64,000 bases of DNA from Tremella fuciformis. Taxonomy: Eukaryota > Basidiomycota > Tremellomycetes > Tremellales > Tremellaceae. Location: the NCBI GenBank assembly GCA_032768795.1, contig CP136500.1:310001-374000 (forward strand), read 5' to 3'. A program made the position numbers and the translations under genes. Under the pieces are notes generated by a model, which was not told the origin of the DNA, made no database searches, and worked only from the letters and a program-made list of their open reading frames with translations. Every line of letters starts with the position of its first letter. The first letter of the stretch is position 1. Below are positions 44,108-64,000 of this stretch, piece by piece.

Positions 44108-45639
44108 ATGGCCCCAACAACTCCAGCGGCAAATCAAAAGGTGAGCGCTGCGCAACAACACGCACAGGCGGAGGGGCAGACGAGTGATTTGGCGCAACAC
44201 GCCGGGCAAACACAACGGTGGCTATCGCAAAGGATTGGGCGGCCGGTTCATCCTGCCGTTGCGGGTAGCATTGGTAGCGCAGGAGCAGAGACCGGAGCAG
44301 GGGGAGGGAGGGCGGCAAGGGGAGAGGGAAGAGCCCCAACCTCATGAGTAACCGCAGAGCAGGCCAAAGAGGGGCTGAGGTGAAGGATTTGACGGTACCC
44401 AGCGGACGTTTGGTCGCAGGCGCAGCGCGCGCCGAGAAGACTTGGTACCCACGAGATTGTCGAGCTGGGCGAGGGGGCCGTTGAGGGCAAGGTGCTGCAA
44501 AGGGAGGAAGGGTTGGAGGTGGACAAGGAGAGGGAGGCAGGGGGGCTCAGGCTTGAGCCGGCTCTCCCGGTGAACATAGGGGCATGCGTGTGGGTGCAGA
44601 AACGCTGGCATAAGCCACCGCAACACGACTGAGAAGAGACAATACTGATGGGCAGGGGTGTAACGGACCGACAGCATCATTGACCCAAGGCGCGCTGGCG
44701 CGCCGGGGTGACTGACTACCTCGCCCCGTTCGAGCGGGCCATGTTGACGACACTGAGCATGTGCGACGTCCACTACGCCATTGCCCATGACCTACCTCTG
44801 GGCGAGGGGCTCCTCTTGCCACCTTGCACAGGGCGCAGTTGTTGACAGCACGGCAAGGCGAGCAACTTGTGCGTCAAAATCAGCGAGGCGAGCGATTTAC
44901 TTGCCAAGATGAACGAGGCGGGCGCGTTACAAGCTGAGGCGGATGGGTCTGGCAACGCGGATATGGAAGGGAGAACGCAGCGGAGGCCGCACTGCGGGAG
45001 TCAGGGGAGAGGCTGGAGAGGAGCACGGCCGCGCTGCGGGCCGCGCTGGGGGGCAAGGGGAAGGGGCAAGCGGAAGGGGAACACGGGGCGGCGACGCCCG
45101 CGCCGCTACCACGCAGCTCACCGCGTGCCCCGGCAACACCAAGTCGGGCAGGGCGACATGCGAACCGGACCCCAGCAAAGCTTCTTGTAAGTGATGACCC
45201 ATGACAGAGGCAAGGGACTTATCAACAGGGCGACCACGACAATGCCGTCGACGCAGAACGGCTGTGCCTGCCGTGCAGGCGAGAAGGAAGCAGGTGTCTC
45301 GTCCCCCGGGGTACCATCGGCCAACAGTGCTATACGTGCACAACCGGCCGCTGCAGCTTCAAGGATGGCAAGCCCGCGTCCAGCTCACCTGTTGCCGGGC
45401 GGACGCCACAACGCGACGCACTGCCCGCGACACCTCAGCGGTCCGCTGACCGCCACATTGGCCCCAGCAACTATGCCGTGACGCAGGGGCTTGCCGCGCT
45501 GGCGTGCAGCCCAGGGGACCCCAGGGTGCGCCGGTATGCCGTGAACGAGCTAAGACGGATGCTGGGGGAGGGTTTGAGCCAGTGGGGCCTCGACGACCTC
45601 GACAAGGGACCGGCCCCCGGCAGGTCGGGAGGCAATTAG
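44108..45639 (+). CDS. Antisense gene of gypsy2: Cys-cluster protein, exon structure partly unresolved
   Basis: Lies on the strand opposite pol, between pol and the 3' LTR. Exon 1 is 11 codons (MAPTTPAANQK) followed by GTGAGC, matching exon 1 of the gypsy3 counterpart in length and donor. The last exon, 45229-45639, follows a 42-bp intron (45187-45228, GTAAGT...CAACAG) and encodes a cysteine cluster, CX2CX6CX11CX2CX4C, from LCLPCRREGSRC to GRCSF (45265-45354), then a C-terminus ending SGGN. Upstream of the intron an open frame carries a helical stretch (EAALRESGERLERSTAALRAAL). The middle (44141-44960) is not continuously open in any one frame and may hold more introns or decay. Its stop is 27 bases from the pol stop, tail to tail. 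Function unknown; the cluster resembles a fungal Zn2Cys6-like finger, but the last spacing is short. Confidence 0.6.
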
Positions 45640-45666: not shown

Positions 45667-46062
45667 TCATAGAGCACTCTGTGCAGCATCTTCATGATCG
45701 CGCCATTGGAGTGGAAAAACGCAGAACTCATGTGGCCCGGCGAGCGCCTCGCCGAGGCTGCTTGAGGGCTTCTCTGGATGGACGGCGTGGAGCTTGGCGA
45801 CGAGCTTGGCTGCTGAATCGATCACATGCGCCAAGGGCTCCCAGGTCGCGTGTTCATCTGTGAGCTCAAAGCCCAACCACTCGACGAGATACTCAAGCCG
45901 CCCACGCCGCACCCGAGAGTCCAGGATTGCCGCAACTTCCCAACTTTCTCCAAGCTCGCTGTCCACTTCCACCGGGTCGGGCGGCTTGTACGACTGGCCG
46001 GGCAAGGTAGGCTGCTGGAAAGGCTTCAGGAGGTTGACATGGAAAACGTCATGGCACTTCAT
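45667..46062 (-). CDS. gypsy2 pol C-terminus with chromodomain
   Basis: 131 codons: DVFHVNLLKPFQQPTLPGQSYKPP, then a chromodomain (SWEVAAILDSRVRRGRLEYLVEWLGF...HATWEPLAHVIDSAAKLVAKLHAVHP). It is out of frame with the main pol ORF because of a run of about 23 G at 46064-46086. This could be an assembly or replication-slippage difference rather than a true break. Confidence 0.88.
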   Translation of the reverse strand: MKCHDVFHVNLLKPFQQPTLPGQSYKPPDPVEVDSELGESWEVAAILDSRVRRGRLEYLVEWLGFELTDEHATWEPLAHVIDSAAKLVAKLHAVHPEKPSSSLGEALAGPHEFCVFPLQWRDHEDAAQSAL

Positions 46063-49000
46063 GGGGGGGGGGGGGGGGGGGGGGGGAGAGCAAGGCGATA
46101 GGTTACCGGGTTGACCTGTTTGATGATCTCGAACGGCCCACCGAACTTGAGATCCAACTTCTTCATTGGTTGCCGAGTCTCAATGTTCTTCAGCAAGAGG
46201 AGCACCAAGTCGCAGACCTTGAAGCTGGGCGGCGGCAAGTGCTTAGCATTGTAGTGCCTCGCATAATTGCGGTTTGCCGCCTCAATGTTAGCCCGACAGA
46301 GCTCATGCAGGTCACTCAGCTCTGCTGCCTTCCGCAGTCCCAGCCGTTCACCGGCATCCGCACCCTCCTTCTCCGGGTTCTCCGAGTTCTCCAAGTCCTC
46401 GGTCCATCTTGGCAAGTACCCAAAGTTTGCTATGAACGGGGACATCTTGATAGCCGAGTGCTTCCAGTTGTTGTACGAGAACGACGCGCATGGCAAGAGT
46501 TTAGCCCAGTTATCTTGCTGATAAGTCAAAAAGACCCGAAGATACTGCCTGAGTACCTGGTTCACCCGCTCAGTTTGCCCATCAGTCTGCGGATGGAAGG
46601 CCGTGGATAAGGACAGCTTAATACCCAAGGCCTTACACAAGTTGCCCCAAAGCTTACTGGTGAACTTGGAACATCGATCGGAGACGATGGATTGCGGGAG
46701 CCCATGTTGACAGACCACGTGATCAATGATTAACTCGGCAAGTCCCGCCGAGTTGAGCCGAGTGGTCGTCGGAATGAGAATTGCCCACTTGGTCAGTCTG
46801 TCAACAACCACCAGAATCAAGTCAAAACCAATAGAGACCGGCAAGGGCTTGATAAAGTCCATGGAGATGGACGCCCAAGGCCTCTCGGCTATCTCCAGCG
46901 GCTGGAGAAAGCCGTGAGCTCGGTGATGGTCGGTTTTGGTCCGCTGACATACTGCGCATGCGCGAACGAAAGCCTCCACGTCGCGCCAAAGGCCAAGCCA
47001 CGCGTAGTTGCGCTTTACCAGCTCGAGTGTCTTTGTGACGCCCGGGTGCCCTGCAAGGATAGCTTCATGCCGCCTCTTCAGGATCCGCACCCGTTCTGGC
47101 CCTGGTTCCACGTAGAGTCGTCCGTCGACCCGCAGCCTTCCCTCGGGGTCACGCTGCAAGAGCGCTTCCCCAGAGAGGCGGAGCCTCCGGCAGAATCCCA
47201 ACAGGGTGGGGTGAGTTGAGGCGAGAGTAGGCGATTCAGGAGTTAACTCAGCCAGGACCGGGGATAACTTGGCGGCCTCAACGCGCTCCTTGCCGACCTC
47301 CTCTTCCTCCTCCTCCTCGACACCAATCTTGCCGAGTGTTGCCGCACGGAGGAGATAGCCAAGGGAGGATGAGACCAAGGAGGAGGAGTCGGCAGTGGGG
47401 AGCGCCTGGATGAAGTTCTGCGGCTGCTGCATCAATGGGCCCGGGAGATACGCCGAGTCACAGGAGAGCCCATTGGGAAGTTCGCCCACCTTACCGGGGC
47501 GATACACAATCTTGTAATCAAACCCAGCCAGGATCTCAACCCATCTGGCCTGGCGCGGGTTCAGTTGCCGCGGCTCCATCCAGTAAGTAAGATTCAAGTG
47601 ATCAGTGATGACCGTGGAATGGACCTGAGACAACAGATGCCGCTTGCGTCGGAAAGCGTGGACGATGGCCAGAAACTCTTTCTCAGTCACCGTGTAGTTC
47701 AATTCGGCGCCCTTGAACGAGCCCGACTCAATGGCCACCGGGTGCTCCTCGTTTGCCGAGTTCACTTGCGAGATCACGAAACCCCAGCCATAGGCCGACG
47801 CGTCAGTCTGCACAATTGTCGGCAACTCTGGGTTGAAGAAGGCAAGCACCAGAGCCTGACTCAGTTTTTCCTTCAGCGTCTGGAACGCCTGTTCCTGCCC
47901 CTCATCCCAATGGAAACCCACCGAGGCTTTGGTCAGGTGGTGTAGCGGCCCGGCGACTTTAGCAAAGTGAGGGAGGAATTGCCGATAGTACCTCGCCATC
48001 CCCAGAAAGCGTCGCACCTCATGGAGATCCTTGGGCCTTGAGGCTTCTTGGACCCCTTGGATGTAGCCCAGGTCAGCCGTCACGCCGTCCTTGGAGATCG
48101 TGAAGCCAAGAAACTTCACAGATCTCTGCTCAAACCGACACTTACTCGCCTTTACGAACAGAGATCTTCCTCGCACCCGCTCCAGAACTTGCCAAGTAAC
48201 CCGGCGAAGCTCTTCGAGCGTTTTGGCGTGAACGATGATGTCGTTGATGTATACCGTGACCCACTGCCTGAGATCACTGAACAGCTCATTCAGGAAGTGC
48301 TGAAAGACAGCAGGCACATTGCGCAGCCCATCACGCACGACTAGCGACTCGTACATGCCGAACGGCGTGCGGAAGACGGTGAGGCTCTCAAACCCTTCGG
48401 CGATCAATTGGTACGCCCAGACCAGGTCAAAGCAGGAGAACCACTCGGAACCGCCAAGGTCAGAGATGACTTGAGAGATCAGCGGAACAGGGTAAGCATC
48501 AGGAACGGTGGCGCTGTTCAGGTGTCGGTAGTCCACCACCATTTGCCATTTCACTCCGTCAGTCCTACGCACGCAGAAGGTCGGCGAGCCATACGGCGAG
48601 TTGCTAGGGCAAATGCGGCCCGCGGCTTCTTCTCTCTTGAGGATTTGCCTCATAGCTTCCTTCTGGTCTTGGGCAACCTCGTAGAGCGGGGCGAGCTTGA
48701 GCAAGCTGCCTGCCTTCAACTCGATTTTCATGTCATACGCTCGGTGTGGTGCAAGAGTCTCGACGCCTTTCCTGGGGTGGGAGATGTCGAGGAACTCCAG
48801 GTACTGGTCAGGGACGCTGGCGGCAATCAGCTGAATCTCCGCCTCAGAGAGTTCAGCGGGCGGCTCGAAGGAAGGCCATGAGCTGAGCTCGTCCAGCTGG
48901 TCAAACCTCAGCGAACTCGGCGAGTCTGTGGCGACCGCGCACAGTTTCAACTCTTCAGCAACGACGAATGGCTAGCAGCATGGATGGGTCACGGGGATAG

Positions 49001-49754
49001 AGTTTGAGCGAGAGAAAGCGCGTTTCTTTGTTCCCATCCGCCTCTTCCTGACTCGCTTCTTCCCCGGCTGCTGCTTCCTCAGCGAGGGCTCGGCGCTCGG
49101 CGACCGTCCTGCTTGATCATCCTTGGTCGTCAAGCAGGGGGGAGGCAAGGTTGGGGACGGCTCAGGATCAACGGACTTGGTAGGGGCAGCGGAGCAAGGA
49201 GGGACGCAGGGAACAGGATCAACGGGCAGAGGGGACTTGGTGGGCACATTGGATAGAGGAAACGGGGTGGACTCAGCGACTTCAGGGAACTCGGTGGGCT
49301 TGGTGACTTCAGGGGACTTGGACTCGGTGGAGCTCGGGGAGAGAGAGAGAGATAAAGAAGATGACTCGGCGACATGGGAAGAGGGGACGGGCTCTGCCCA
49401 ACCTTGCATCGATGCTCCTGTGACAGTCCCCTTGCTGAAGTCAATCACAACTTGGCGAGTTTGTAGCCACAGGTAGCCCAACACTGCATCAGCTCCATTC
49501 AGGCGCATGAGCTCGAATCTCGCTGTACCAGCATACTGTCCCACCTCGACTCGCTCGCAAGAGAAGTGAGTCAGGGGGCCATCAGAAGACACTACCCCGT
49601 CGAACAGGGTGAGTCCGACCGGTTTGTCGTTCGCATTGAGAGCAATGCGGTGTCGCTTGGCAAACAACTTGGCGAGGAAGTTTGCAGAGGCTCCTGAATC
49701 CAGGAGGACCTTTGCGGGGTGCCCGCTGATGCGACCTGCAACAACAGCATGCAT
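46059..49754 (-). CDS. gypsy2 protease, RT, RNase H, integrase
   Basis: The protease part (49754-48975) has VLLDSGASANFLA and AVLGYLWLQ. A single TAG (48972-48974) in the same frame then separates it from the 960-codon RT-RNaseH-integrase ORF. RT: YGSPTFCVRRTDG, MVVDYRHLNSATV, YINDIIVHAK (the first Asp of YxDD is Asn). RNase H: TIVQTDASAYGWGF, YTVTEKEFLAIV, TDHLNLTYWM. Integrase: HEAILAGHPGVTK...CAVCQRTK zinc site, ISMDFIKPLP, SIVSDRCSKF, HPQTDGQTERVNQ, with D, D and E present. Lost RT aspartate suggests it cannot reverse transcribe by itself. The stop could be readthrough or a mutation. Confidence 0.92.
49392..49405 (-). promoter_or_regulatory. Internal copy of the polypurine tract (possible second priming site)
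   Basis: AAGGTTGGGCAGAG on the minus strand inside the protease coding region, identical over 14 bases to the 3' tract of gypsy2. Central tracts exist in some LTR elements; here the role is a guess. Confidence 0.35.
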
Positions 49755-49930
49755 GGGATTGTGTAGGAGCCTCTCAGAGGCTGCCCAACCTTGTGGGGAA
49801 TCAGCGATAAGCTTGGGTATCTGGGAATCATCAGTCTGGGGTGAAGGGGAACGAGAACGATCAGAGATTACGGTTGCGGCAAGTCTGTGTGGAGAGGGAT
49901 GATGGTCGCCGAGCTGTTGTTCACCATCCC

Positions 49931-51193
49931 TCAGGCTTTTGGGGCCTGTCCCTGGGTGGGAATCGGGGGCAGCGGTCTCAGCTTAGCGGTGGGACAGTTG
50001 ATCAGCTGGTGGCCGTCCTGCGCGCACCGCAAGCAGAGCCCGCCGTGCAATAGGCGCTCCTTCTCGGCCTCCGTCGGAGACTTGTTGGGGTTGCGCGTTG
50101 ACTTCAGCAAGTCTGGCCCGGAAGGGCCCGAACTTGCCAAGGACTCGCCGCGCTGCTCGCTGACACGAGCAGGCGGGAGCGCTGCGCCCAAGCGCTCGGC
50201 CCATGGGCGTCGTGCTGGCGCTTCAGCCTTGGTATACTTGGGCTTGTGCCTTTTGGCCTTTGCCGCCACAGCCTCCTCCAGCTTCCTCTCCTCTTCACGA
50301 TGGCGGAGACGGTTGTCCAGAGGCACGATGAATTTGACGATCTCGATCACCAAGTCGAACTCGCCGCGCTTAGCGATCTCATCCTTGAGGTGAGGCTTGA
50401 GACCGTGAATGGCCCAATCCACAATCGCGACCTGATCAGTGAAACCAGCAACCGCGACAAGCTCCCTGACCTTTGCAAAGTGCTCGGCAGCTGACTTGGT
50501 CTGCTGCAGCGCTCGGAGTTGTTGCTTTGTCGTCCCCCTTTTGTCCGGGTCGCCAAAAGCAGACTTGAGGTACGTCTTGAACGCTTCCACCGTGGCCAAC
50601 TCGGCGGGTTGCGGCTGCATGCCTACCATTGGCTCGACAGGCTGGAGAGCCGGTACACGCAGGTACAAGATCATGAACAAGACCATGACCTCCTCTGACT
50701 GGTACCGGCTCGCATGCAAACTAAACATCAGCTTGCACTGCAGCAGGAATCCCTTCAGCTTGGCAGGGTTTTCCCCCGAGAAAGTGTCCGGCTCCTTGAC
50801 CCTCGGCTCGTTCAGCGTGCCACTCGTCAAGCTCGCCGGGTTGAACAAGGGAGCTTGACCTCGTGCTTGGAGGAACTCCTCTTCCTCCTCGCGCTCTTGA
50901 CGGAACTCCCCAAAGGCCTCGCGACGGATGTTCCACCGCTCAAGCTCCTTTACAAAGAGCGCCATGTTTGCCGCCTCACTGAGGTCGGCGGGAGGAGTGG
51001 GCATTGGGCCCAAGCCTTGGCGAGCTTGCCGAGGCTCTTGGGCCCTGGGAGTGTCCGGCGGAGTGGCTCCGCCGTCATTGTCCCTGGTCTTGGTCACAGC
51101 AGGGGGAATGTGAGGTCCAGGAGGCTCCTCCTCAGGTGCACCAAACCTGGGGGACCTTCTACGGGTGGAGGATTTGGGGACAGAGGGAAACAT
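49931..51193 (-). CDS. gypsy2 Gag
   Basis: 420 aa, ATG at 51193, 90 bp from the 5' LTR. Basic/Pro-rich N-terminus, capsid-like region (PDTFSGENPAKLKGFLLQCKLMF, AFGDPDKRGTTKQQLRAL), then a CCHC knuckle (CLRCAQDGHQLINC) and a Pro-rich end. It packages element RNA in cytoplasmic particles by family analogy. The frame differs from protease, so a frameshift at the end of gag would be needed for fusion. Intact. Confidence 0.9.
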   Translation of the reverse strand: MFPSVPKSSTRRRSPRFGAPEEEPPGPHIPPAVTKTRDNDGGATPPDTPRAQEPRQARQGLGPMPTPPADLSEAANMALFVKELERWNIRREAFGEFRQEREEEEEFLQARGQAPLFNPASLTSGTLNEPRVKEPDTFSGENPAKLKGFLLQCKLMFSLHASRYQSEEVMVLFMILYLRVPALQPVEPMVGMQPQPAELATVEAFKTYLKSAFGDPDKRGTTKQQLRALQQTKSAAEHFAKVRELVAVAGFTDQVAIVDWAIHGLKPHLKDEIAKRGEFDLVIEIVKFIVPLDNRLRHREEERKLEEAVAAKAKRHKPKYTKAEAPARRPWAERLGAALPPARVSEQRGESLASSGPSGPDLLKSTRNPNKSPTEAEKERLLHGGLCLRCAQDGHQLINCPTAKLRPLPPIPTQGQAPKA

Positions 51194-51518
51194 GATGGAG
51201 AGACCTTGACAAGATGAACAAGGAGAAACAGGACTCAGCGGGTTGGGGTACGTATCTGACAGTAATAGTCTTCTTCCTATACTGTCACGGCGACCGCCTT
51301 CACTGTCCAGGGCCCTGCACGCAAGTACACTGAAGGGTCAGCAAGGGGCTCGTTGACGTTGACAGGTGTGAGGGAGTAGCTCGGCAAGGAAGGAGCTTGG
51401 CAAGGGACTTGCGGAGCTTGAAGAGGTGAACGAGGTGGGCGAGGAGCTTGGCAAGGGACTTGCTGAGCTCAAAGAGATGAACAGGTAGAGTGGGGGATGC
51501 GGCGAGGGACTCGTTGTA

Positions 51519-51678: not shown

Positions 51679-52209
51679 CAACAGAATCTTCGACGGAATC
51701 TTAGCTCTGAGGCAATGGGATTCCGGTCACCTGTTGCCCGCTCAGCACTTGCTATGAGTGATGAGAAGGGCAACAGGCGGCAGCATTCTACAAGGTCGTC
51801 GAGGGTATCGGCGTTATAGTTGGAGTTATTGATGGTGGCAGCTTCCCTGCCTCGTCGAGGATGAACCTCGACGAGGTTGTCCCTCGTCGAGGATGTGTGT
51901 GCCTCGACAAGGCTACTCGAGGATGAGTCAAGCTCATGTGAGCGTATCACCTATTTCCGTTGATCTTAGCTCTGAGGCAATGGGATTCCGGTCACCTGTT
52001 GCCCGCTCAGCACTTGCCATGAGTGATGAGGAGGGCAACAGGCGGCAGCATTCTACAAGGCCGTCGAGGGTGTCGGCGTTATAAGCGGAGTTATAGTTGG
52101 TGCCAGCCTGTCAACCTTGTCAAAGTTCATCCTCGACGAGGTTGTGTGCGTCGACGAGGCTACTCGAGGATGAGTCAAGCTCATGTGAGCGTAACACCTA
52201 TTTCCGTTG
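51679..52209 (-). repeat. Older solo copia1 LTR, interrupted by a younger one
   Basis: Starts CAACAGAATCTT (decayed CGACGGAATCTT), ends ATTTCCGTTG, exact duplication CGGGA on both sides (51674-51678, 52210-52214). Its 12th base is where the younger copy inserted. Confidence 0.92.
51691..51962 (-). repeat. Younger solo copia1 LTR nested in a copia1 LTR
   Basis: 272 bp, CGACGGAATC...ATTTCCGTTG, exact duplication ATCTT on both sides (51686-51690, 51963-51967), the target being the start of another LTR of the same family. Confidence 0.94.
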
Positions 52210-53292: not shown

Positions 53293-53590
53293 TGTCACAA
53301 TAGCCCTCACCAACAAGAAAGAGCTTGTCAATGCTCCCCGCTCCGTCCCGCCAACAGCTGCTAAGGTCTAGTACTTGTCGGCCCACCTCGTCTTGCCTTC
53401 CCTTGCCTTCCTTTGTCTTGTTTGTCTTGCCTAGCTTTACCACCCCTTGTCAACACTTGTTAAGACTCTACAAGTCCTTCAAGCCCTTGCCCACCGCCAC
53501 TTCTCCTTGCCTTGCCAGCCTTGCCAGAGTGAAAGAGTCTCAGTCACCCAGTGACGGGGACTTGAACAGAGACAGAGAGGTATTGTGACA
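53293..53590 (+). repeat. LTR family F with internal deletion
   Basis: TGTCACAATAGCC...GAGGTATTGTGACA, 298 bp against 667 in the full copy. The satellite array begins directly at its end, and the satellite linker at 54338-54412 has copied the last 75 bp of this LTR. Confidence 0.85.
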
Positions 53591-53688
53591 CAAGAACACT
53601 ATGCAATACATGATAATCCTTGTGGTGACACAGTTATCCTAGAATTCTAGGATAACATCCGTCACATGTGTATTGCCATCAGGAGAGC

Positions 53689-54123
53689 TGTCACGATGCT
53701 GCGCTCTCCCGTTGGCAGAGGCCCTCTCGCACAATATCAGAGTCAAGAATAAAGGATAAAGGGGTAGAAACGAGGATGTCGAGGTAGGATCCTCGTCGAG
53801 GTTGGATCCTCGTCGAGGTTACAAGGTCGTCGAGGTAACAAGGTCGTCGAGAATGCAGCGTGAGTGCGACTCAGCCACGCTGCGTGCCACGGAGAGAGTG
53901 AGATCGTCAAGGATGATCCATGAGACTCAATCAGAGAGTGCTGAAGAACTACGACGGGCGCCCGGGGCATCCTATATGACTCTGCGCCTGCTTCCCGTCG
54001 TCGCGCGTTCATTCAACGTCTACTCCCTCGTCGAGGTTCTCCAGCCCGAGGTAGGTCACGTGTCGGCCACGTGAGAGGTGTCGGTCACATGTATAGGTCG
54101 TCGAGGGCGTGGCCGTCGTGACA
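53689..54123. repeat. Solo LTR, family B, in the satellite
   Basis: 435 bp, TGTCACGATGCTGCG...GGCCGTCGTGACA, exact duplication AGAGC on both sides (53684-53688, 54124-54128). Confidence 0.95.
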
Positions 54124-54916
54124 AGAGCGCTTTTCAGTTGCGTAGGCTTTGGCCAATGCATGAGATTACTAGTGTTGACACACTGGTCCAACAAAGCTGA
54201 GCTGAGAGAACAGGCAGGAATTTAGCCAATAGGTGAGAATCCTTGTGGTGACACAGTTATCCTAGAATTCTAGGATAACATCCGTCACATGTGTATTGCC
54301 ATCAGGAGAGCGCTTTTCAGTCGCGTAGGCTTGCCTTGCCAGCCTTGCCAGAGTGAAAGAGTCTCAGTCACCCAGTGACGGGGACTTGAACAGAAACAGA
54401 GAGGTATTGTGACACAAGAACACTTTGCAATACATGATAATCCTTGTGGTGACACAGTTATCCTAGAATTCTAGGATAACATCCGTCACATGTGCATTGC
54501 CATCAGGACAGCGCTTTTCAGTCATGTAGGCTTTGGCCAATGCATGAGATTACTAGTGTTGACACACTGGTCCAACAAAGCTGAGCTGAGAGAACAGGCA
54601 GGAATTTAGCCAATAGGTGAGAATCCTTGTGGTGACACAGTTATCCTAGAATTCTAGGATAACATCCGTCACATGTGTATTGCCGTCAGGAGAGCGCTTG
54701 TCAGTCATGTCGGCTTTGGCTAATGCATGAGATTACTAGTGTTGACACACTGGTCCTACAAATCCGAGAATACATGATAATCCTTGTGGTGACACAGTTA
54801 TCCTAGAATTCTAGGATAACATCCGTCACATGTGTATTGCCATCAGGAGAGCGCTTTTCAGTCATGTAGGCTTTGGCCAATGCATGAGATTACTAGTATT
54901 GACACACTGGTCCAAC

Positions 54917-55320
54917 TGTCACGTCGGCCACGCCTCCATGATCACCAACGCACGCCTACGATCTTCATCCCAGCCCAGCACGTCTGTCAGACACGTGACA
55001 ATACCGTCGAGCCTCGAGTACCTTCAACGAGCCTCGAGTAGCCTCGAGGACTCTAGAGCTCGAGCCTCATCGATGGTGTTACAAGGAGAAAGCCTCAGGC
55101 GGTGCAGAGGAGGGCACGGGTGATATATATACAGGTCCTCAGCTGTAGACCATCCTTAGCACCGTGGCATTGAGTCCCATGGATAGAAGATAACGGTGCA
55201 GCCTTGTTGTTGACGCACAAGAGGCTGTAGGACACACCTTCTTGTGGAGGACACAGACAGATTGACTGAGAGTACATGTGAGAGGGCCTATAAGTCGACG
55301 ACCGGCCTGGCCCCGTGACA
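54917..55320 (+). repeat. Solo LTR, family C, in the satellite
   Basis: 404 bp, TGTCACGTCGGCC...GGCCCCGTGACA, exact duplication CCAAC on both sides (54912-54916, 55321-55325). TATATATACA near 55123. Confidence 0.95.
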
Positions 55321-55803
55321 CCAACAAAGCTGAGAGAACAGGCAGGAATTCAGCCAATAGGTGAGAATCCTTGTGGTGACACAGTTATCCTAGAATTCTA
55401 GGATAACATCCGTCACATGTGTATTGCCATCAGGAGAGCGCTTTTCAGTCGCGTAGGCTTTGACCAATGCTTGTGATTACCAGTGTTGACACAGTGGTCC
55501 TACAAATCCGAGAATACATGATAATCCTTGTGGTGACACAGTTATCCTAGAATTCTAGGATAACATCCGTCACATGTGTATTGCCATCAGGACAGCGCTT
55601 TTCAGTCCAATGCATGAGATTACTAGTGTTGACACACTGGTCCTACAAATCCGAGAATACATGATAATCCTTGTGGTGACACAGTTATCCTAGAATTCTA
55701 GGATAACATCCGTCACATGTGTATTGCCATCAGGAGAGCGCTTTTCAGTCATGTAGGCTTTGGCCAATGCATGAGATTACTAGTATTGACGCACTGGTCC
55801 AAC

Positions 55804-56207
55804 TGTCACGTCGGCCACGCCTCCATGATCACCAACGCACGCCTACGATCTTCATCCCAGCCCAGCACGTCTGTCAGACACGTGACAATACCGTCGAGCC
55901 TCGAGTACCTTCAACGAGCCTCGAGTAGCCTCGAGGACTCTAGAGCTCGAGCCTCATCGATGGTGTTACAAGGAGAAAGCCTCAGGCGGTGCAGAGGAGG
56001 GCACGGGTGATATATATACAGGTCCTCAGCTGTAGACCATCCTTAGCACCGTGGCATTGAGTCCCATGGATAGAAGATAACGGTGCAGCCTTGTTGTTGA
56101 CGCACAAGAGGCTGTAGGACACACCTTCTTGTGGAGGACACAGACAGATTGACTGAGAGTACATGTGAGAGGGCCTATAAGTCGACGACCGGCCTGGCCC
56201 CGTGACA
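55804..56207 (+). repeat. Solo LTR, family C, duplicated with the satellite
   Basis: Apparently identical to 54917-55320 at an offset of 887, including its CCAAC flanks. It arose by duplication of the satellite block, not by a second insertion. Confidence 0.95.
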
Positions 56208-56887
56208 CCAACAAAGCTGAGAGAACAGGCAGGAATTCAGCCAATAGGTGAGAATCCTTGTGGTGACACAGTTATCCTAGAATTCTAGGATAACATCCGT
56301 CACATGTGTATTGCCATCAGGAGAGCGCTTTTCAGTCACGTAGGCTTTGACCAATGCTTGTGATTACCAGTGTTGACACAGTGGTCCTACAAATCCGAGA
56401 ATACATGATAATCCTTGTGGTGACACAGTTATCCTAGAATTCTAGGATAACATCCGTCACATGTGTATTGCCATCAGGAGAGCGCTTTTCAGTCATGTAG
56501 GCTTTGGCCAATGCATGAGATTACTAGTGTTGACACACTGGTCCAACAAAGCTGAGCTGAGAGAACAGGCAGGAATTTAGCCAATAGGTGAGAATCCTTG
56601 TGGTGACACAGTTATCCTAGAATTCTAGGATAACATCCGTCACATGTGTATTGCCGTCAGGAGAGCGCTTGTCAGTCATGTCGGCTTTGGCTAATGCATG
56701 AGATTACTAGTGTTGACACACTGGTCCTACAAATCCGAGAATACATGATAATCCTTGTGGTGACACAGTTATCCTAGAATTCTAGGATAACATCCGTCAC
56801 ATGTGTATTGCCATCAGGAGAGCGCTTTTCAGTCATGTAGGCTTTGGCCAATGCATGAGATTACTAGTATTGACACACTGGTCCAAC

Positions 56888-56930
56888 TGTCACGTCGGCC
56901 ACGCCTCCATGATCACCAACGCACGCCTAC
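56888..56930 (+). repeat. LTR-C start, cut by the copia1b insertion
   Basis: The first 43 bp of an LTR-C (TGTCACGTCGGCCACGCC...CGCCTAC), then copia1 LTR. It sits at the same satellite position as the two complete LTR-C copies. Confidence 0.9.
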
Positions 56931-57200
56931 CAACGGAAATAGGTGGTACGCTCACATGAGCTTGACTCATCCTCGAGTAGACTCGTCGAGACACACATCC
57001 TCGACGAGGTTGTCCCTCGTCGAGGATGAACCTCGACGAGGCAGGAAAGCTGCCACCAACAATAACTCCACTTATAACGCCGACACCCTCGACGACCTTA
57101 TAGAATGTCGCCGCCTGTTGCCCTCCTCATCACTCATAGCAAGTGCTGAGCGGGCAACAGGTGACCGGAATCCCATTGCCTCAGAGCTAAGATTCCGTCG
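56931..57200 (+). repeat. 5' LTR of copia1b
   Basis: 270 bp, CAACGGAAATAGGTGG...GATTCCGTCG, followed directly by TGGTAACG and a leader of about 97 bases to the Gag ATG. This adjacency is the reason for assigning the whole repeat family to copia1. Confidence 0.8.
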
Positions 57201-57770
57201 TGGTAACGTCTCATTCGACAAGTCGCGGTAGATAGAACGCGTCAACAAACTCGTCGACCTTGCCTACGCACCGCCAGCCTCGAAGTGGTCCTCCGTCATG
57301 CCATCTCTGCAGACGGTGAAAGAAGAGCGTAAGCTCAACGGGCGCGACAACTACGCCCAGTGGGTGCGCGAGATTCGAGTCGTCCTGGGATCCGCCGGCC
57401 TTGTCCCACACATCACCAAAGACGCGTCAGCGATTCGGGCACTCGTCGAGGCTCGATATCCAGTGTCAAGTCCGGCCACAGCAGCCGAGACATCAAAGAG
57501 AGCAGTTGCTCTATACGAGCATGAGAAGGAGCAGTCCACCGCCCTCTCCACTCTATACGGCAGTCTGACAGAGACTGTCCAAAATAAGCTTCCCTCGAGC
57601 CTGATCGACTTCGAGAATCCTCAACCGAAGGGGCTTTACGATCACCTGATCACCACATACGGGGCCGACAACGGATCTCGCCTAGCCGAACTATGGTCAT
57701 CAATCTTCGGCGAGACCATCCCAGAGAATGAGGACCCCGAACCTCATCTCACAGCTATCCGGTCGCAACT
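57201..57770 (+). pseudogene. copia1b leader and Gag N-terminus, truncated by gypsy3
   Basis: ATG at 57298 opens MPSLQTVKEERKLNGRDNYA, then YAQWVREIRVVLGSAGLVPHI and a helical region; from about residue 99 it matches the beginning of the window (1-200) almost exactly. It is cut at 57770 by the end of an LTR-A. The TGG right after the LTR could be a primer-binding site, but the following bases do not fit a tRNA end well. Confidence 0.9.
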
Positions 57771-58542
57771 TGTCAGACCTGTACCCGGTGACCTGTACTA
57801 GATCCAACTAAAGCTCACCTAAATCAATCTATCGGTTCAAGCTGCTAACTATTAACGACTATTCGTAACAGATAGTAACGAACAAGAGTAGAGTGGAACC
57901 AAGCTGGGTGAGGAGCGATCAAGACTCACTTCACTTATCTATCTCTCGTCACTGGTACGGTCGATTCTCTAAGTAGACGTTCTATCTAGAGGACTAGTTA
58001 ACTAGATCGCTGAGGAACTTCCTCTGCGATCTTCCTTCTTAAGTATCTGCTGACTCTCGCCCGCTCTCACTCTGATCCTTCTAGCATCGTCCTTCGTGGA
58101 TCGTTCCATCGTTCTCCTAGTCGCTTCTACTCGTTCCCAATACTCTCTAGTATTCTCTCGTCGTCTCTCTTCTCTTCTATCGTCTTCTCTCCGCGCTGGC
58201 TTGCATCTAATCTCCTTGTGTGCCCGTCGTCGTCCTTATCGTCCTCGGTCTCCGCCCCGTGGCCCTGACTGTGAGATAACTCTATCCTCCGTTATCGTGG
58301 ACCTGACTCTTGTCCTTGCGTGCGTTCCTATCTCAACTCGGCCGATGGAAGACTGAGACGTATCCTTCTATCGTTCTCCAGGTTGTTCCAGCGCTTTCAA
58401 GAGCAAGTCGTAGTTATTCGTGACTAATAGTGACGGTTCTATCGTACTCACGTTCTTCGGTTCGTAGGATCCTTTGGATGTTTCCGTCGGAAGTTGCCTC
58501 GTGGTAGTCTCGTGGTCAGGATGCCGTGTCGGTTTCCTGACA
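57771..58542 (-). repeat. 3' LTR of gypsy3 (family A)
   Basis: 772 bp. On the minus strand it reads TGTCAGGAAACC...GGTCTGACA and is preceded by the purine tract GGAGGGAGGAG. The left flank is CAACT; the partner duplication should lie beyond the right edge of the window next to the 5' LTR. Confidence 0.95.
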
Positions 58543-58552
58543 CTCCTCCCTC
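58543..58552 (-). promoter_or_regulatory. Polypurine tract of gypsy3
   Basis: GGAGGGAGGAG on the minus strand, abutting the TGTCAGG of the 3' LTR. Confidence 0.85.
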
Positions 58553-58851
58553 CTTTACATCATGAGTCCCTTCATGATAAGATTAGTCGCGACTGATTTT
58601 TATTTGTTCTTGATACCGCCTATCGGTTGTCGCTTATCGTCCCGTTGCCTAGCAACGACTTTCTACATGTCGAGCATCTGCGAGTTGTCACCCTAGTTGC
58701 CTAGCAACCGCTCGCTCTTGCGACTGCCTCATACTCGTTTTACTCGTAACGCCGTTTTGCCGATAGACGCCCGCAGGATACATAAGGGCGTGACTGCGCC
58801 CTCTCGTTGTTCGTTCGTACATCTACTTTTCTTGACCTTTGGCGTACCCCT

Positions 58852-60211
58852 ATGGCCCGCTCTCGCGCATCCGCCCAACGACGTGTGAGTACTCGATCAT
58901 GTTCGTGGCTATTACTGACCAAGAGCATAAGGGACGCTTCACGCGCAAGTCCACCTCGCCCGCTATGACGCCCCTGCCTGAGTTGGACGAGTTGGCTCCG
59001 TCAAACGAAACCCGACAAGATCTCACCCAGATGGATGCGGACCCGAGTGAGTTACTACTACTCGCTCGTATTTGTCACTAATAGCAGATGAGACACCTGC
59101 CCTCCCCACTCTCTCGGATGGAGAAGGCGTCACCCAGCCTCTCGCCCCCGCCGACACCGTCTCAGCTCCCGCTGCTCTCGAACGTGCCCCCACTGCCCCT
59201 CTGAACACCGCCCAAGACAAGACTTCGTCGCCTGCCCCGGAGGCTGACAACAAATCCGAAGGTGTGTTTGTTTTCTTGTATTCGTGTGTATTCGTTCCTA
59301 ATAGTTTCCAGATGGATCCGAGACTACTGATCCCGAGGGTAACGTCGATGAAGACCCTAGTAAGTCGTTCCTATTCGATTTTATCCGCAACTAATAGCAG
59401 CCTTCCTTCTTTCCTCCGATCCCCCCGCCATCGAAGACGAGCTGGACTCGTCGGAGACAGAGTCCGAACCCCCTCGCAAGAAGGGTTCCAAGGGGAAAGG
59501 GAAACAACGCGCCATTGTCGATACTCCTATTCGCGAGCTCGACGAGACCAAGCCCATTCCGTCCACTCCGGAATCAGTTGATCCCGACGAGATCCTGGCC
59601 ATTGTGAGTAGTTTCTATTCGTTACGAATAGTAACTAATTGTAGGACTATGCCACGTTCATGTCAGCCGCCCACGCGAGTCAGACCCCGTCTAAGTTTGT
59701 TCCGAAGGCAAGTGATCTCGTACTGTTTGGGGTTAATAGTAACGAATAGTCCCACACTGTCGATGTCCCCCCGCCCTACAAACGGCCGTCCGAACTTAAG
59801 GCCGGTGAGGCGCCGCCCAAGCGTGCTGCTCGCGGCACGCGCCCACTTTCAAATGAGAAGTTCGCCGAACAGCAAAAATATCCGGTCTCGGTTCCACCGT
59901 GCCGAGGCTGTCTCAAGGCCAAGCTTGTTTGTCGAGTCAAGCCAGGCTCAATTCGCTGTGCTGTGTGCACTTCGGCATGTTCTTTCTCAGACCCCGCGCC
60001 TTATCTTCAGGTTTTACGAGAGCATTTCCTTTCCCTCAAGGAAGGTCTGAAGGGACTCGAACGCGCTCGATTGAATTCGTCTACCTCCGGGACAGTCACT
60101 ATCCCTGCGGGCACTTTTGCGGACATACATTCGCGCATTTCCCAGATAGGTGAAGCCGAGGCAGCTGTTCGTACTTTGGAGTCGCTGAAGAGGAAGAATA
60201 GGGAAATGTAG
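58852..60211 (+). CDS. Antisense spliced gene of gypsy3: Cys-cluster protein, 367 aa
   Basis: Opposite strand to pol, between pol and the 3' LTR. Seven exons join in one frame: 58852-58884, 58926-59046, 59088-59261, 59312-59359, 59401-59603, 59645-59707, 59750-60211. Introns are 41-50 bp, mostly with CTAAT just before the AG; the last has a GC donor. Exon 1 is 11 codons (MARSRASAQRR). The middle is acidic and Pro/Ser-rich (TPLPELDELAPSNET, AIEDELDSSETESEPP, KKGSKGKGKQRA). The last exon holds PCRGCLKAKLVC...RCAVCTSACSFS (CX2CX6CX9CX2CX3C, 59900-59980), a possible zinc cluster, then a helical tail (FLSLKEGLKGLERARLN, ISQIGEAEAAVRTLESLKRK). A TATA-like GATACATAAG lies at about 58776. Its stop is 67 bases from the pol stop, tail to tail. 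Function unknown; DNA binding is a guess. Confidence 0.85.
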
Positions 60212-60278: not shown

Positions 60279-63200
60279 TTACTGACGACTTCTTAGATTA
60301 TGCCTGTGCCCGGTCTCTTGCCTGACTGACTCTTGAGTTCGTTGTCGTTTGTTAGGTCGTATAGGCTCTTCTTTGTCGCTATTTGTCTTTATTCGTTTTG
60401 AATAGCTCCTATCTTTCTTGATTCCTCCGAATGTGTGACCAATGGGCTTGTCGGGGTGTCGCTCGTGGAATGTTCTTACAACCTCTGCCGCGTTTCTGAC
60501 GTTCACCTCCGGCTCCCAGCCCACTTCATCGTCCCCGTAGCCTCTCCACTCCACTAGGTACTCGACTTTCCCATTCCTTGTTCTTCTTGAGTCCAGAATC
60601 CTCTCGACTTCAAATTCAGCATCAGGCTCCACTATAGTTGGTAGTCCTTGTGGTTGCCCTTTTGGTCGTATTCGTTTGTCTTCGACGCTAATAACGTCCA
60701 CAGGATGCAGTCTGGACACATGAAAAACATTGTGGATCTTGAGCGTCGCTGGTAACTTCAATTTCTTCGCGTGTGTTCCTATTGATTCTTCCACCTGGAA
60801 GGGTCCATCTCGCCTGTAGTCGAGTTTCTTGCTGGGTCGTTTCGTGTTAAGGCCCTCGAGGTCCAACATGACATAGTCTCCGTCCTTGATTTCGACCTGC
60901 GGCTGGTGCTTCCTGTTGTAGTACTTCTCCATTTCCTTTCCTGCTCGTACATAGTTCTCCCTGCAGATTGAGTGAACTTCGTTCATTGAGTTCGCACGTT
61001 GTCTTGCTTGCTGATTGTCGACTTTATTCGGTTCTAATATTTCCTGAACCCATCTAGGATGAAATCCGTGTAGCGCATAGAACGGGGTCATTCCTATCGT
61101 ATCGTGATGGGCGTTGTTGATGGCGAACTGGGCGAATGCCAACAACGGTGCCCAGTTGTCCTGGTCGAAGTTGGTGAAGATCCTCATGAATCCCTCTACT
61201 TTCTGGTTATGTCGCTCGGTTTGACCATCAGTCTGCGGCCTTCTTGCCGTACTGAGTGCCAATCGAATGTCGAATTGCTCCGTTAGACTCCTCCAGAAGT
61301 CTGATACAAATTTACTTCCCCTGTCAGATACAATCGTGCTCGGCAGTCCGTATCTGGAGAATACCGTATCGAATAGTAACGAACACATTTCGGGTGCGTT
61401 CAACTTTGTTACCGTGGGTATGAGCACTGTGTACTTTGTCAAGCGGTCGACCACTACTAGTATTGAATTGAAGTTGTTTGAGACTGGCAGCTCTTCGATG
61501 AAGTCCATCGTGATGTCCTCGAACGGTAGGCGTGGAACTTCCAAGGTTCGTAGCTGACCTCTTGGTCTCTGGTTGAAAGGCTTGGTGCGCAGACAGGCTG
61601 TGCAGCTCGACACGTACTTGGTGACGTGCGCAGTGAGCCCAGGCCAGTAATAGTCCCGTTGAACCGCCTTCATAGTCCTTTTAACTCCTGGATGTCCTGC
61701 CAACGGAGTGTCGTGTCTTGAGTTTATGATCTTGAACCTCAAATCATCGTAGTCTGGGATATAGATTTTGCCGTCGATGCGGATGAATCCTTGTTGGTCT
61801 ATTTCGACTCTAGTATCGCTTGATAGTCGCAATTCGTTCCTAATATCTTCGAGCGGTTTCTGTGCGGCAATCCCTTCGATGACTTGCCTGCACTGCTCGT
61901 CCTTCATATACCCTTCCCTTACTCTGCTTCCATCGATGATCCAATCATACGTGTTCGGGTCTGCTGTACTGGGTGATTCGGTCGTTGTAACCCCATACAT
62001 TTCAAGGGGTTCCTGGTCTTCGACGATTGAAGCTGTCTTCTTTGACTCTTCTAAGTTCGTCACTATTTGGTCCAATTCGTTCTCAGCATCGATTGTCTCG
62101 ATCACCTGTCGAACCTTCGAGTCCGTTTGGTAACTGTCACCGCCTCTTGTCCCTGCCAGGTCAGGTCGTCTCGACAGGGCGTCTGGTACCACGTTGCCCT
62201 TACCTGGGGTGTACACTATTCGTAGATCGAAGCGAGCCAGGATCTCTGCCCATCTGGCCTCCCTGTTTGATACCTGCTTCGGCATGGTATACCCTATCAA
62301 GGGCTGATGGTCGGTAACAAAGATTATTGGCCATTTGCTGCCCTCGAAATATGCTCGATGATGTTGTAAGCAATAAATAATTGCGAATAGTTCTTTCTCG
62401 GTGACAGTCCAGTTCTCCTCATTCGGTTTGAGCCTTGCTGAACCATAATGGATTGCCGTTCGCTTCATGGTGTTGCGATCCACATGGTAGATCACATACC
62501 CAATGGCGAAGTCCGAGGCATCCGTGTGTACCTCTATCGGGAGCTCTGGATCGAAGTGCCCGAGAATAGGCGGTGATGATAGGGCACCTTTCAGCGACTG
62601 AAATGCCTTGTCAGCCTCTTCGTTCCAAATAAACCTTGCTTTCTTCGACATCAACTTGTTGAGAGGTCTCGCAATTCCCGAGAAGTTGGGTACAAATCTT
62701 CGGTAGTAACTGAAAAGACCCACCGCAGATCGTAGTTCCTTCTGTGTAGTCGGGATAGGGAAGTTCCTAATAGTTTCTGTTAGTCCTTCGTCGGTTGCTA
62801 TCCCCTCCGCAGACACCCTGTGTCCTAAGAATGTAATGCTGTCTTTCTCGAACTCGCATTTTGCTGCTTTTAGTCGAAGCTCCCATTGTCGTAGTATATC
62901 GAAGACTGTCTTGGTAAGAGCTCGAAGTTCTTCAACCGTTTTCGCGTAAATGAGAATGTCGTCGATATATACGTAGACACCTTTCCCTATTAGTTCCGAA
63001 AATATATCGTTCATAAAATGTTGGAACGTTGCGGGAGCCCCTTTTAGGCCATCCCTCATCACAGTGGACTCGAACATACCAAAGATAGTCCTGAACGCTG
63101 TCAGGTGTTCGTGTCCTTCAGCCATCCGCACCAGCTGATAGGCCCCTGCCAAATCCAGCTTCGTGTAGAACCGTGCGTCACGTAGATCTGCCAAGATCTG

Positions 63201-63872
63201 CGAGATTAATGGTAACGGATAGGCGCTATTTACTGTGGCTTCATTTAGCTTGCGATAGTCCACGACTAGTCGTAAGCGTCCGTCTTTCTTCGGGACAAAG
63301 AACGCCGGCGATCCATAAGGTGATAACGAATGGTATATCTTTCCTTCCGCCTTCTCCTTTTCCAAGTATTCGTGTAAGGCGTTCTTTTCTTTCGGAGATA
63401 GTTGATAGAGAGGAGCAAGAGGCAGCTTACCTCCCTCCTTTAGTTCTATCCTGTGGTCGTACGGTCGATGTGGCGGCAGCGCTGCCGACCCACTCGGTTC
63501 TTCAAACAAGTCTTCCCATCCTTGGTAGGCCTCTGGAATCTTGCTTTCCTTTGCCGAAGACTGTTCCTTCTCGTTCAAGGTCGTGTACGAGTCGCTCTCA
63601 CTGGCGGTTACTCCGTTCACCTCTACCCTTGTTTGGTCGTATTCTTTCTCCTCAAGTGCTATTCGTCCCCATTTGTTCCAAATAGTCACATCTTGCAAAT
63701 CTTCGATTGCCGTCCAATCCTCCGGATCGGTTCCGGCTTCATCCTTGCCGTATTTGTAGTCGTCGTAGATTCCACTAGAATCATCGCTTGACTCATCATC
63801 CCTCGTAGAAGGGTCACTGAGTACGGGAGTCCCGTCTTCCGTCCCAGCCCTTTCAAGAGGATCGTCCGCCAT
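60279..63872 (-). CDS. gypsy3 Pol: RT, RNase H, integrase, chromodomain
   Basis: One open frame of 1197 codons from ATG 63872. Residues 1-110 are acidic linker. RT spans about 135-365 (SPYGSPAFFVPKKDG, LVVDYRKLNEATV, YIDDILIYAK with both Asp at 304-305), RNase H about 435-560 (EVHTDASDFAIGYV, WTVTEKELFAI, TDHQPLIGY), the H2C2 zinc site at H720, H726, C757, C760, integrase core at D790, D850, E886 (HPQTDG reads RPQTDG), and a chromodomain at about 1080-1135 (FEVERILDSRRTRNGKVEYLVEWRGY...GWEP). No protease is visible in this ORF, so it should precede it beyond the edge or lie in an upstream ORF. The tail is basic (RPNKRQRTQES). Intact. Confidence 0.96.
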   Translation of the reverse strand: MADDPLERAGTEDGTPVLSDPSTRDDESSDDSSGIYDDYKYGKDEAGTDPEDWTAIEDLQDVTIWNKWGRIALEEKEYDQTRVEVNGVTASESDSYTTLNEKEQSSAKESKIPEAYQGWEDLFEEPSGSAALPPHRPYDHRIELKEGGKLPLAPLYQLSPKEKNALHEYLEKEKAEGKIYHSLSPYGSPAFFVPKKDGRLRLVVDYRKLNEATVNSAYPLPLISQILADLRDARFYTKLDLAGAYQLVRMAEGHEHLTAFRTIFGMFESTVMRDGLKGAPATFQHFMNDIFSELIGKGVYVYIDDILIYAKTVEELRALTKTVFDILRQWELRLKAAKCEFEKDSITFLGHRVSAEGIATDEGLTETIRNFPIPTTQKELRSAVGLFSYYRRFVPNFSGIARPLNKLMSKKARFIWNEEADKAFQSLKGALSSPPILGHFDPELPIEVHTDASDFAIGYVIYHVDRNTMKRTAIHYGSARLKPNEENWTVTEKELFAIIYCLQHHRAYFEGSKWPIIFVTDHQPLIGYTMPKQVSNREARWAEILARFDLRIVYTPGKGNVVPDALSRRPDLAGTRGGDSYQTDSKVRQVIETIDAENELDQIVTNLEESKKTASIVEDQEPLEMYGVTTTESPSTADPNTYDWIIDGSRVREGYMKDEQCRQVIEGIAAQKPLEDIRNELRLSSDTRVEIDQQGFIRIDGKIYIPDYDDLRFKIINSRHDTPLAGHPGVKRTMKAVQRDYYWPGLTAHVTKYVSSCTACLRTKPFNQRPRGQLRTLEVPRLPFEDITMDFIEELPVSNNFNSILVVVDRLTKYTVLIPTVTKLNAPEMCSLLFDTVFSRYGLPSTIVSDRGSKFVSDFWRSLTEQFDIRLALSTARRPQTDGQTERHNQKVEGFMRIFTNFDQDNWAPLLAFAQFAINNAHHDTIGMTPFYALHGFHPRWVQEILEPNKVDNQQARQRANSMNEVHSICRENYVRAGKEMEKYYNRKHQPQVEIKDGDYVMLDLEGLNTKRPSKKLDYRRDGPFQVEESIGTHAKKLKLPATLKIHNVFHVSRLHPVDVISVEDKRIRPKGQPQGLPTIVEPDAEFEVERILDSRRTRNGKVEYLVEWRGYGDDEVGWEPEVNVRNAAEVVRTFHERHPDKPIGHTFGGIKKDRSYSKRIKTNSDKEEPIRPNKRQRTQESVRQETGHRHNLRSRQ

Positions 63873-64000
63873 TGGCGCTTTTTCGCAGCTATTCGTTTCT
63901 GTTGCTCCTTCGCCATCGTTGCTTATTCCAGCCTCGCCAGATCCTTCCTGGGTTACTGAGATCGGTCTCCATCGATTGCCGCTTTCCGCGATCTCGATGT

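Follow-up and report, generated by a model that had tools for sequence, protein, structure and literature searches.

The chromodomain Ty3/gypsy element gypsy3 carries, antisense to pol, a gene of seven exons and six introns (58852-60211, + strand) in the interval that separates pol from the 3' LTR. We consider, with a probability of about 0.6, that this is a genuine coding accessory gene of a clade of such elements, spliced in antisense orientation and probably encoding a nuclear zinc-binding regulator. The spliced antisense frame, which goes beyond what chance would produce, is confirmed at the sequence level. The gene seems to be an ancient accessory gene of a single chromovirus clade, because it is present in five element families that share a set of cysteines, show low dN/dS ratios and fall on the same side of a single 100/100 branch of the RT tree. 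Introns are expected to vanish from genes passing through reverse transcription; here, a six-intron gene has been retained by a retrotransposon clade across deep divergence, which makes the idea of protection by antisense orientation concrete and testable from sequence alone.

The antisense gene of gypsy3

The window, that is, the whole stretch of DNA analysed, comprises 64 kb (C11:310001-374000) taken from a genome of 28.1 Mb (11 contigs), and the comparisons between copies were made within this one genome. Most of gypsy3 lies inside the window, on the minus strand; the element extends approximately over C11:367771-376675, its 5' LTR being located just beyond the window. The 3' LTR (57771-58542, - strand), with the ends TGTCAGG...CTGACA, has the same sequence as the 5' LTR at C11:375.9-376.7 kb (L031), with one difference in 754 compared positions, and gypsy3 is a young copy of a chromodomain Ty3/gypsy element. 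A polypurine tract, AAAGGAGGGAGGAG on the minus strand (58543-58556, read directly), adjoins the 3' LTR, and the 5-bp target-site duplication CAACT (57766-57770) is repeated immediately beyond the 5' LTR, near C11:376676, which the window does not reach. The pol gene (60282-64000, - strand; stop codon 60279-60281) is a 1508-aa open frame that runs past the window edge and is convergent with the antisense gene. Its Pfam domains are, in order, RVT_1, RT_RNaseH, Integrase_H2C2, rve and Chromo, the last of them scoring 52.4 bits versus a cut-off of 25.1. The element therefore shows the domains of a chromovirus (RT, RNase H, integrase and C-terminal chromodomain, in Ty3/gypsy order) as well as its ends (LTR pair, polypurine tract and CAACT on both sides).

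The single 367-codon frame of the original prediction, composed of seven exons separated by six introns, could be rebuilt from the sequence: the exons sum to 1104 nt, equivalent to 367 amino acids plus the stop codon. According to the gene model and the comparison of copies, the plus-strand exons are exon 1, which starts with the ATG (58852-58884), exon 2 (58926-59046), exon 3 (59088-59261), exon 4 (59312-59359), exon 5, which encodes an acidic stretch followed by KKGSKGKGKQR (59401-59603), the short penultimate exon 6 (59645-59707), and exon 7 (59750-60211), which contains a six-cysteine module (59900-59980), predicted C-terminal helices and the stop codon (60209-60211). Introns 1 to 6 (58885-58925, 59047-59087, 59262-59311, 59360-59400, 59604-59644 and 59708-59749) are 41, 41, 50, 41, 41 and 42 nt long, the first five being GT-AG and the sixth GC-AG. 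CTAAT is found near the acceptor in introns 2-5, with CTGAC in intron 1 and TTAAT in intron 6, so that the CTAAT or CTAAC motif previously attributed to five of the six introns is present in only four.

An alternative end of intron 1 at 58931 would give a protein of 365 aa. However, the AG at 58931 is replaced by AC in the diverged copies L019 and L053, whereas both of them, like all 18 full copies, retain the AG at 58925; 58925 is therefore the likelier acceptor. The antisense stop codon faces that of pol at a distance of 67 bp. At the other end of the gene, some 310 nt separate the ATG from the edge of the 3' LTR, and a TATA-like sequence, ATACATAAGG (58778-58787, + strand, read directly), is a putative promoter element 65-74 nt upstream of the ATG. 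In family B, described below, TATAAGGG precedes the antisense ATG by about 120 nt (also read directly).

Constraint on the gene and its distribution

A DNA search of the genome recovered 18 copies (that of the window included) spanning the whole 2.6-kb query with 98-100% identity, together with broken copies and one copy of 84% identity (L053). All six splice-site pairs are intact in the 18 full copies and the gene contains no indels in any of them; the 367-codon frame is uninterrupted in 16, L009 and L015 having one premature stop each. Indels are present at five sites in the 310-nt stretch just upstream of the gene, but the LTRs of these copies are also free of indels and, for this reason, their absence from the gene is weak evidence on its own.

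The 18 full copies and the two parts of one interrupted copy together provide 74 distinct exonic changes, and the expected counts were obtained by placing the same base changes at random. Thirty-five of these changes are synonymous versus 22.5 expected, and 39 are not versus 51.5 (P=0.001). L053 gives way to other sequence at intron 1, and its exon 1 was therefore excluded; in the remainder, 105 changes are synonymous (52.9 expected) and 78 are not (130.1 expected), the non-synonymous/synonymous ratio being 0.30 of expectation, and the only indels of exons 2-7 are one insertion of 3 nt and one deletion of 6 nt. Nonsense changes are not depleted among the 74 (2 versus 2.1 expected) and selection against stops is thus not visible among young gypsy3 copies, but they are depleted in L053 (1 versus 5.4 expected, P=0.025). 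The other two frames of the antisense-gene strand show no synonymous excess. One frame of the pol strand, whose third position coincides with that of the predicted frame, is also in excess (32 versus 22.3, P=0.014; L053, 78 versus 52.1), although more weakly than the predicted frame (35 and 105). These frame controls and the census of 18 copies placed the acceptor of exon 2 at 58925, and the synonymous test and nonsense counts used the acceptor at 58931. Since these tests compare copies of mobile elements, the constraint refers to the lineage of active copies.

A tblastn search with the last exon detected 22 gypsy3 copies and two weak matches antisense to the end of another chromovirus pol. 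Searches outward from the weak matches brought the total to 99 places with a related last exon, distributed over five element families: A, which is gypsy3 itself (22 places), B (6), C (15, including a diverged copy in the window at 44108-45639), E (25; pol frames of 1388-1400 aa) and F (31; pol frames of 1369 aa). The pols of gypsy3 and family F are 44-45% identical. No internal stop is present in 92 of the 99 last-exon pieces. Orientation could be judged at the 71 places with a chromodomain within 1.5 kb among the matches listed (150 of 213 candidates), and in all 71 the gene is convergent with pol and situated just past its end; the remaining 28 places have no chromodomain among the matches listed. 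The count of 99 excludes degraded or partial pieces (for instance, C5:327722-328450, C10:193285, C10:735325 and C10:707291), second pieces of copies already counted, and the unpaired weak matches C1:2593478, C2:2733339 and C3:1336426.

Constraint extends to all five families. Between diverged copies, the NG86 dN/dS of the last exon is 0.08 and 0.15 in family A (exon 7), 0.10 in family B, 0.15 and 0.47 in family C (where an upstream exon gives 0.12), 0.29 and 0.18 in family E, and 0.25 in family F. The nine comparisons span 0.08-0.47, the weak ratio of 0.47 corresponding to the last exons of L056 and L058. Outside gypsy3 the gene models are partial and were read by eye: an intron precedes the cysteine exon at a short distance in all five families, its donor in family C being the unusual GTCAGT, and families E and F have in common a short penultimate exon of similar sequence. 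The family C copy of the window is a second antisense gene (44108-45639, + strand), with its ATG at about 44108, frames broken in places, a six-cysteine exon at 45229-45636 and a stop codon at 45637-45639. It is convergent with the frames of a second gypsy element (46059-51337, - strand), namely a pol in two frames (46059-49982) and a gag-like frame (49931-51337), as recognized by eye and by its row in the RT tree. The earlier proposal that a coding gene with introns, placed opposite pol and between pol and the 3' LTR, travels with the element and retains its introns is thus borne out by 18 copies and five families. Related elements could have lacked the region or an open frame; instead, five families carry the gene, with 92 of 99 pieces free of stops.

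A maximum-likelihood RT tree was built from 21 of 22 planned rows, P0053 being left out (RT motif unmatched). A 100/100 branch sets the five gene-carrying families apart, along with the pols from Kwoniella shandongensis and Tremella mesenterica, whose RT regions are 54-55% identical to that of gypsy3, and two environmental pols. On its other side there are one Rhizoctonia pol and eleven rows without a detected copy of the gene, some of them close relatives of each other. The cysteine motif is absent from the 2.2-2.3 kb past pol in 10 of these 11 families judged to lack the gene, one copy of each being searched; for L087 and L088 the RT position served to estimate the site past pol, and the sole match in L088 was a low-complexity cysteine stretch. 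The eleventh row is a 1234-aa frame that falls outside the motif search past pol. A single early gain of the gene fits this tree, in which Kwoniella and Tremella are placed by pol alone. To judge from the neighbouring pols and the small introns, the host is probably a basidiomycete and perhaps a Tremellomycete.

The predicted product and its possible functions

Six cysteines are common to six sequences from the five families (family C being represented twice), with the spacing C-x2-C-x6-C-x8..11-C-x2-C-x3..5-C; in L081 of family E (70%) the second of them is lost. Scanned in six frames, the 64-kb window gave two matches to this pattern, each in an antisense gene beside a gypsy pol. Fungal transcription factors of the Zn2Cys6 (GAL4) type have the spacing C-x2-C-x6-C-x5..12-C-x2-C-x6..8-C. 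The gypsy3 module resembles them in its six cysteines, arranged as C-x2-C-x6-C ... C-x2-C ... C and followed by low-confidence helices, and its first five cysteines fit that spacing; however, the last gap is of 3-5 residues rather than about 6-8, and Pfam Zn_clus (PF00172) has no match in any of the six sequences that represent the families. The predicted gypsy3 protein also contains an acidic stretch and the basic sequences KKGSKGKGKQR and PPKRAARGTR. The AlphaFold2 model of exon 7, built from two window sequences, is poor (mean pLDDT of 56), with C-terminal helices of low confidence.

Sequence searches of the PDB returned chance matches only, and neither the spliced protein nor an alignment of families A, B and C (A1) found a homologue among the candidates scored from 5.8 billion database proteins. 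Scans of viral contigs gave no relative either, the 55 pattern matches in one of them yielding no confirmed case. A pol search showed that the same protein database contains Tremellomycete and environmental pols of the gypsy3 clade, and the blank may therefore reflect divergence and spliced genes that are uncalled in metagenomes. Genes of this kind would resemble orphan host genes and could escape both prokaryote-style gene calling and TE libraries, which is a warning for annotation. The Pfam zinc-cluster, PDB and homologue searches being empty, it is from the cysteine spacing and composition that a nuclear DNA-binding regulator is predicted as the likeliest role of the product. The self-limiting or host-targeting role suggested in the original prediction is a conjecture.

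The author of the original prediction was not aware of a described fungal element of this architecture, but antisense accessory genes in the same place are known. One of them, brtn in the element Boty of Botrytis cinerea, was reportedly described by Zhao et al. in 2011. Boty is a fungal chromodomain gypsy element with brtn as an extra antisense gene (PMC7264820; PMC8365987; PMC4227169); it is an ascomycete element and is likened here to gypsy3 by description alone, not by sequence. In plants, the so-called aORF-3R is a lineage-wide coding region antisense to gag-pol and placed between pol and the 3' LTR, with examples in maize Grande (gene23), rice RIRE2, and Silene and other Retand elements (PMC7264820; PMC11963269). 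Grande gene23 is described as having its own promoter and a nuclear product (PMC7264820), and TRP28, which is probably DNA-binding, is reported in 97% of the Retand clusters studied (PMC11963269). Since these genes were already described, the architecture as such is not new. The gypsy3 gene shares with aORF-3R its position and its being common to a lineage. However, Retand is a non-chromovirus plant lineage with TRP28 or other domains, whereas gypsy3 is a chromovirus; Transposase 28 (PF04195, TRP28) is not among the Pfam matches listed with E up to 1 and 10. The main texts of PMC7264820 and PMC11963269 contain no word beginning with 'intron', and no mention of a six-cysteine module was found for the plant antisense ORFs. 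A literature search consisting mostly of papers available without subscription found no description of a multi-intron, six-cysteine antisense gene in fungal elements.

Retroviruses offer a second comparison. The HTLV-1 antisense gene HBZ has spliced and unspliced forms, with a promoter in the 3' LTR; its product is nuclear and acts as a downregulator of the virus, and APH-3/4 suppress LTR transcription (PMC10186651). The gypsy3 gene is similar in architecture to HBZ and APH (HTLV-1, HTLV-2/3/4), all of them being spliced antisense genes at the 3' end of a retroelement. It differs from them in its six introns and in the distance of about 310 nt between its ATG and the LTR, the first coding exon being outside the LTR, whereas the HBZ/APH promoter is inside the 3' LTR; moreover, HBZ has a bZIP domain (other members having none), and no bZIP is among the Pfam matches listed for the antisense protein sequences. 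The antisense accessory genes scattered among plants and retroviruses would thus gain an intron-rich fungal form, pointing to a common solution, namely a regulator gene placed in opposite orientation at the 3' end.

In the proposed reading, RNA polymerase II would start at an internal promoter located between the 3' LTR and the antisense ATG, the host spliceosome would remove the introns of the transcript, and the mRNA would terminate within or close to the 67 bp that separate the gene from the pol stop codon. Reverse transcription copies the sense-strand genomic RNA, in which the introns of the antisense gene are not in splicing orientation, and they would for this reason survive copying; a sense gene could not retain its introns in this way. 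With less certainty, the product would be nuclear and its cysteines would bind zinc, the basic stretches could help nuclear import or contact with nucleic acids, and the acidic stretch and C-terminal helices could serve for interaction or dimerisation. The protein might bind DNA, most simply the LTR or flank of its own element, and in this way control how the family is transcribed or silenced. Where a fungal host depends on introns, a gene rich in them would be expressed and exported efficiently, favouring retention of this design. In Cryptococcus, introns are described as being required for expression, and poorly spliced transposon RNAs are targeted by SCANR and feed RNAi (PMC5851062). If the host resembles Cryptococcus, antisense placement would give the retroelement a well-expressed gene; the feeding of RNAi would be the main alternative use of these introns.

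A more ambitious version of the regulator reading, to which we would give slightly less than even odds, is that a host-style multi-intron gene older than the split of the families exists throughout the clade and has been retained only since it is antisense. The element would then possess two genetic compartments, and a dedicated six-cysteine DNA-binding protein would control its transcription or its silencing by the host, as a fungal counterpart of HBZ that exploits the intron dependence of the host. If this were true, the sense genes would pass through RNA and the spliced antisense gene would be expressed only from integrated copies.

Other explanations have to be weighed against a regulator. 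The cysteine cluster and basic stretches could bind RNA, and the gene is detected only in the RT clade of these pols, which would also suit a structural or life-cycle helper of the element, such as a nucleocapsid-like chaperone or a factor for nuclear import or integration targeting. We regard such a helper as unlikely, since the six-cysteine spacing differs from that of the CCHC zinc knuckle and a separate spliced antisense mRNA would suit a regulator better than a particle component. It is somewhat less probable still that the antisense RNA itself is the functional product, by forming dsRNA with the sense RNA or by feeding nuclear RNAi through stalled splicing, the protein being secondary. 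The geometry of the locus would allow the antisense transcript to pair with the 3' portion of genomic RNA, the targeting of poorly spliced transposon RNAs by SCANR provides a precedent (PMC5851062), and dsRNA silencing was raised for plant antisense ORFs by Vicient & Casacuberta (PMC7264820); however, codon-level constraint in five families and cysteines conserved across them argue for a translated product. The RNA and protein roles could coexist.

The host-like, intron-rich structure might also suggest a passenger, that is, a host gene acquired by a single transduction or nested insertion and without function for the element. This is very improbable given its presence in five families, two of them with pols only 44-45% identical, at the same place and in the same orientation wherever these could be judged, given the purifying selection seen both among copies and within families, and given that no cellular homologue appears among the scored candidates. 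Least credible of all is an artefact, in which chance frames were stitched together or the constraint was imposed by the pol strand. Short introns ease the stitching of frames in principle, and the pol-strand frame with the coinciding wobble position is itself in synonymous excess; this excess is smaller, though, pol has already stopped at 60279-60281, and related exons recur in five families. Along with the passenger reading, chance stitching and pol-strand constraint were rejected, the latter two being, in our view, refuted at the level of the sequence.

Additional observations on elements and repeats

At least 10 near-identical family F pols (e.g. C1:4099335-4102508) share the same internal stops (two TGA and one TAA) relative to the gypsy3 pol, although frames of about 1369 aa are listed as open for them; possible reasons are sense-strand introns, a shift of frame or an effect of how the matches are reported. 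L055 (C10:751.8-754.9 kb) is a rearranged fragment in which a family B antisense exon and a chromodomain end lie amid other repeats, with the convergent arrangement still kept. A weak match to the six-cysteine exon (35%, E 0.007) occurs at C1:2593478-2593651 inside a 1763-aa open frame, with no chromodomain paired among the matches listed, and could be a relative in the host or in another element, or due to chance.

Rfam gave no match at the gathering threshold within the 64-kb window. The pol frame of the family C element contains a run of about 24 G (46064-46087) that reads as a proline run. A plus-strand gag-like frame of another element (57232-57801, named by eye) is interrupted by the insertion of gypsy3 and continues into its LTR. 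Positions 53506-56990 hold related repeats of 140-300 nt in a tandem-like arrangement; they contain the palindrome TTATCCTAGAATTCTAGGATAA, and some pairs are identical across 280-300 nt. This array is enclosed by a 210-nt inverted repeat (51691-51900 and 56991-57200) whose arms are 92% complementary.
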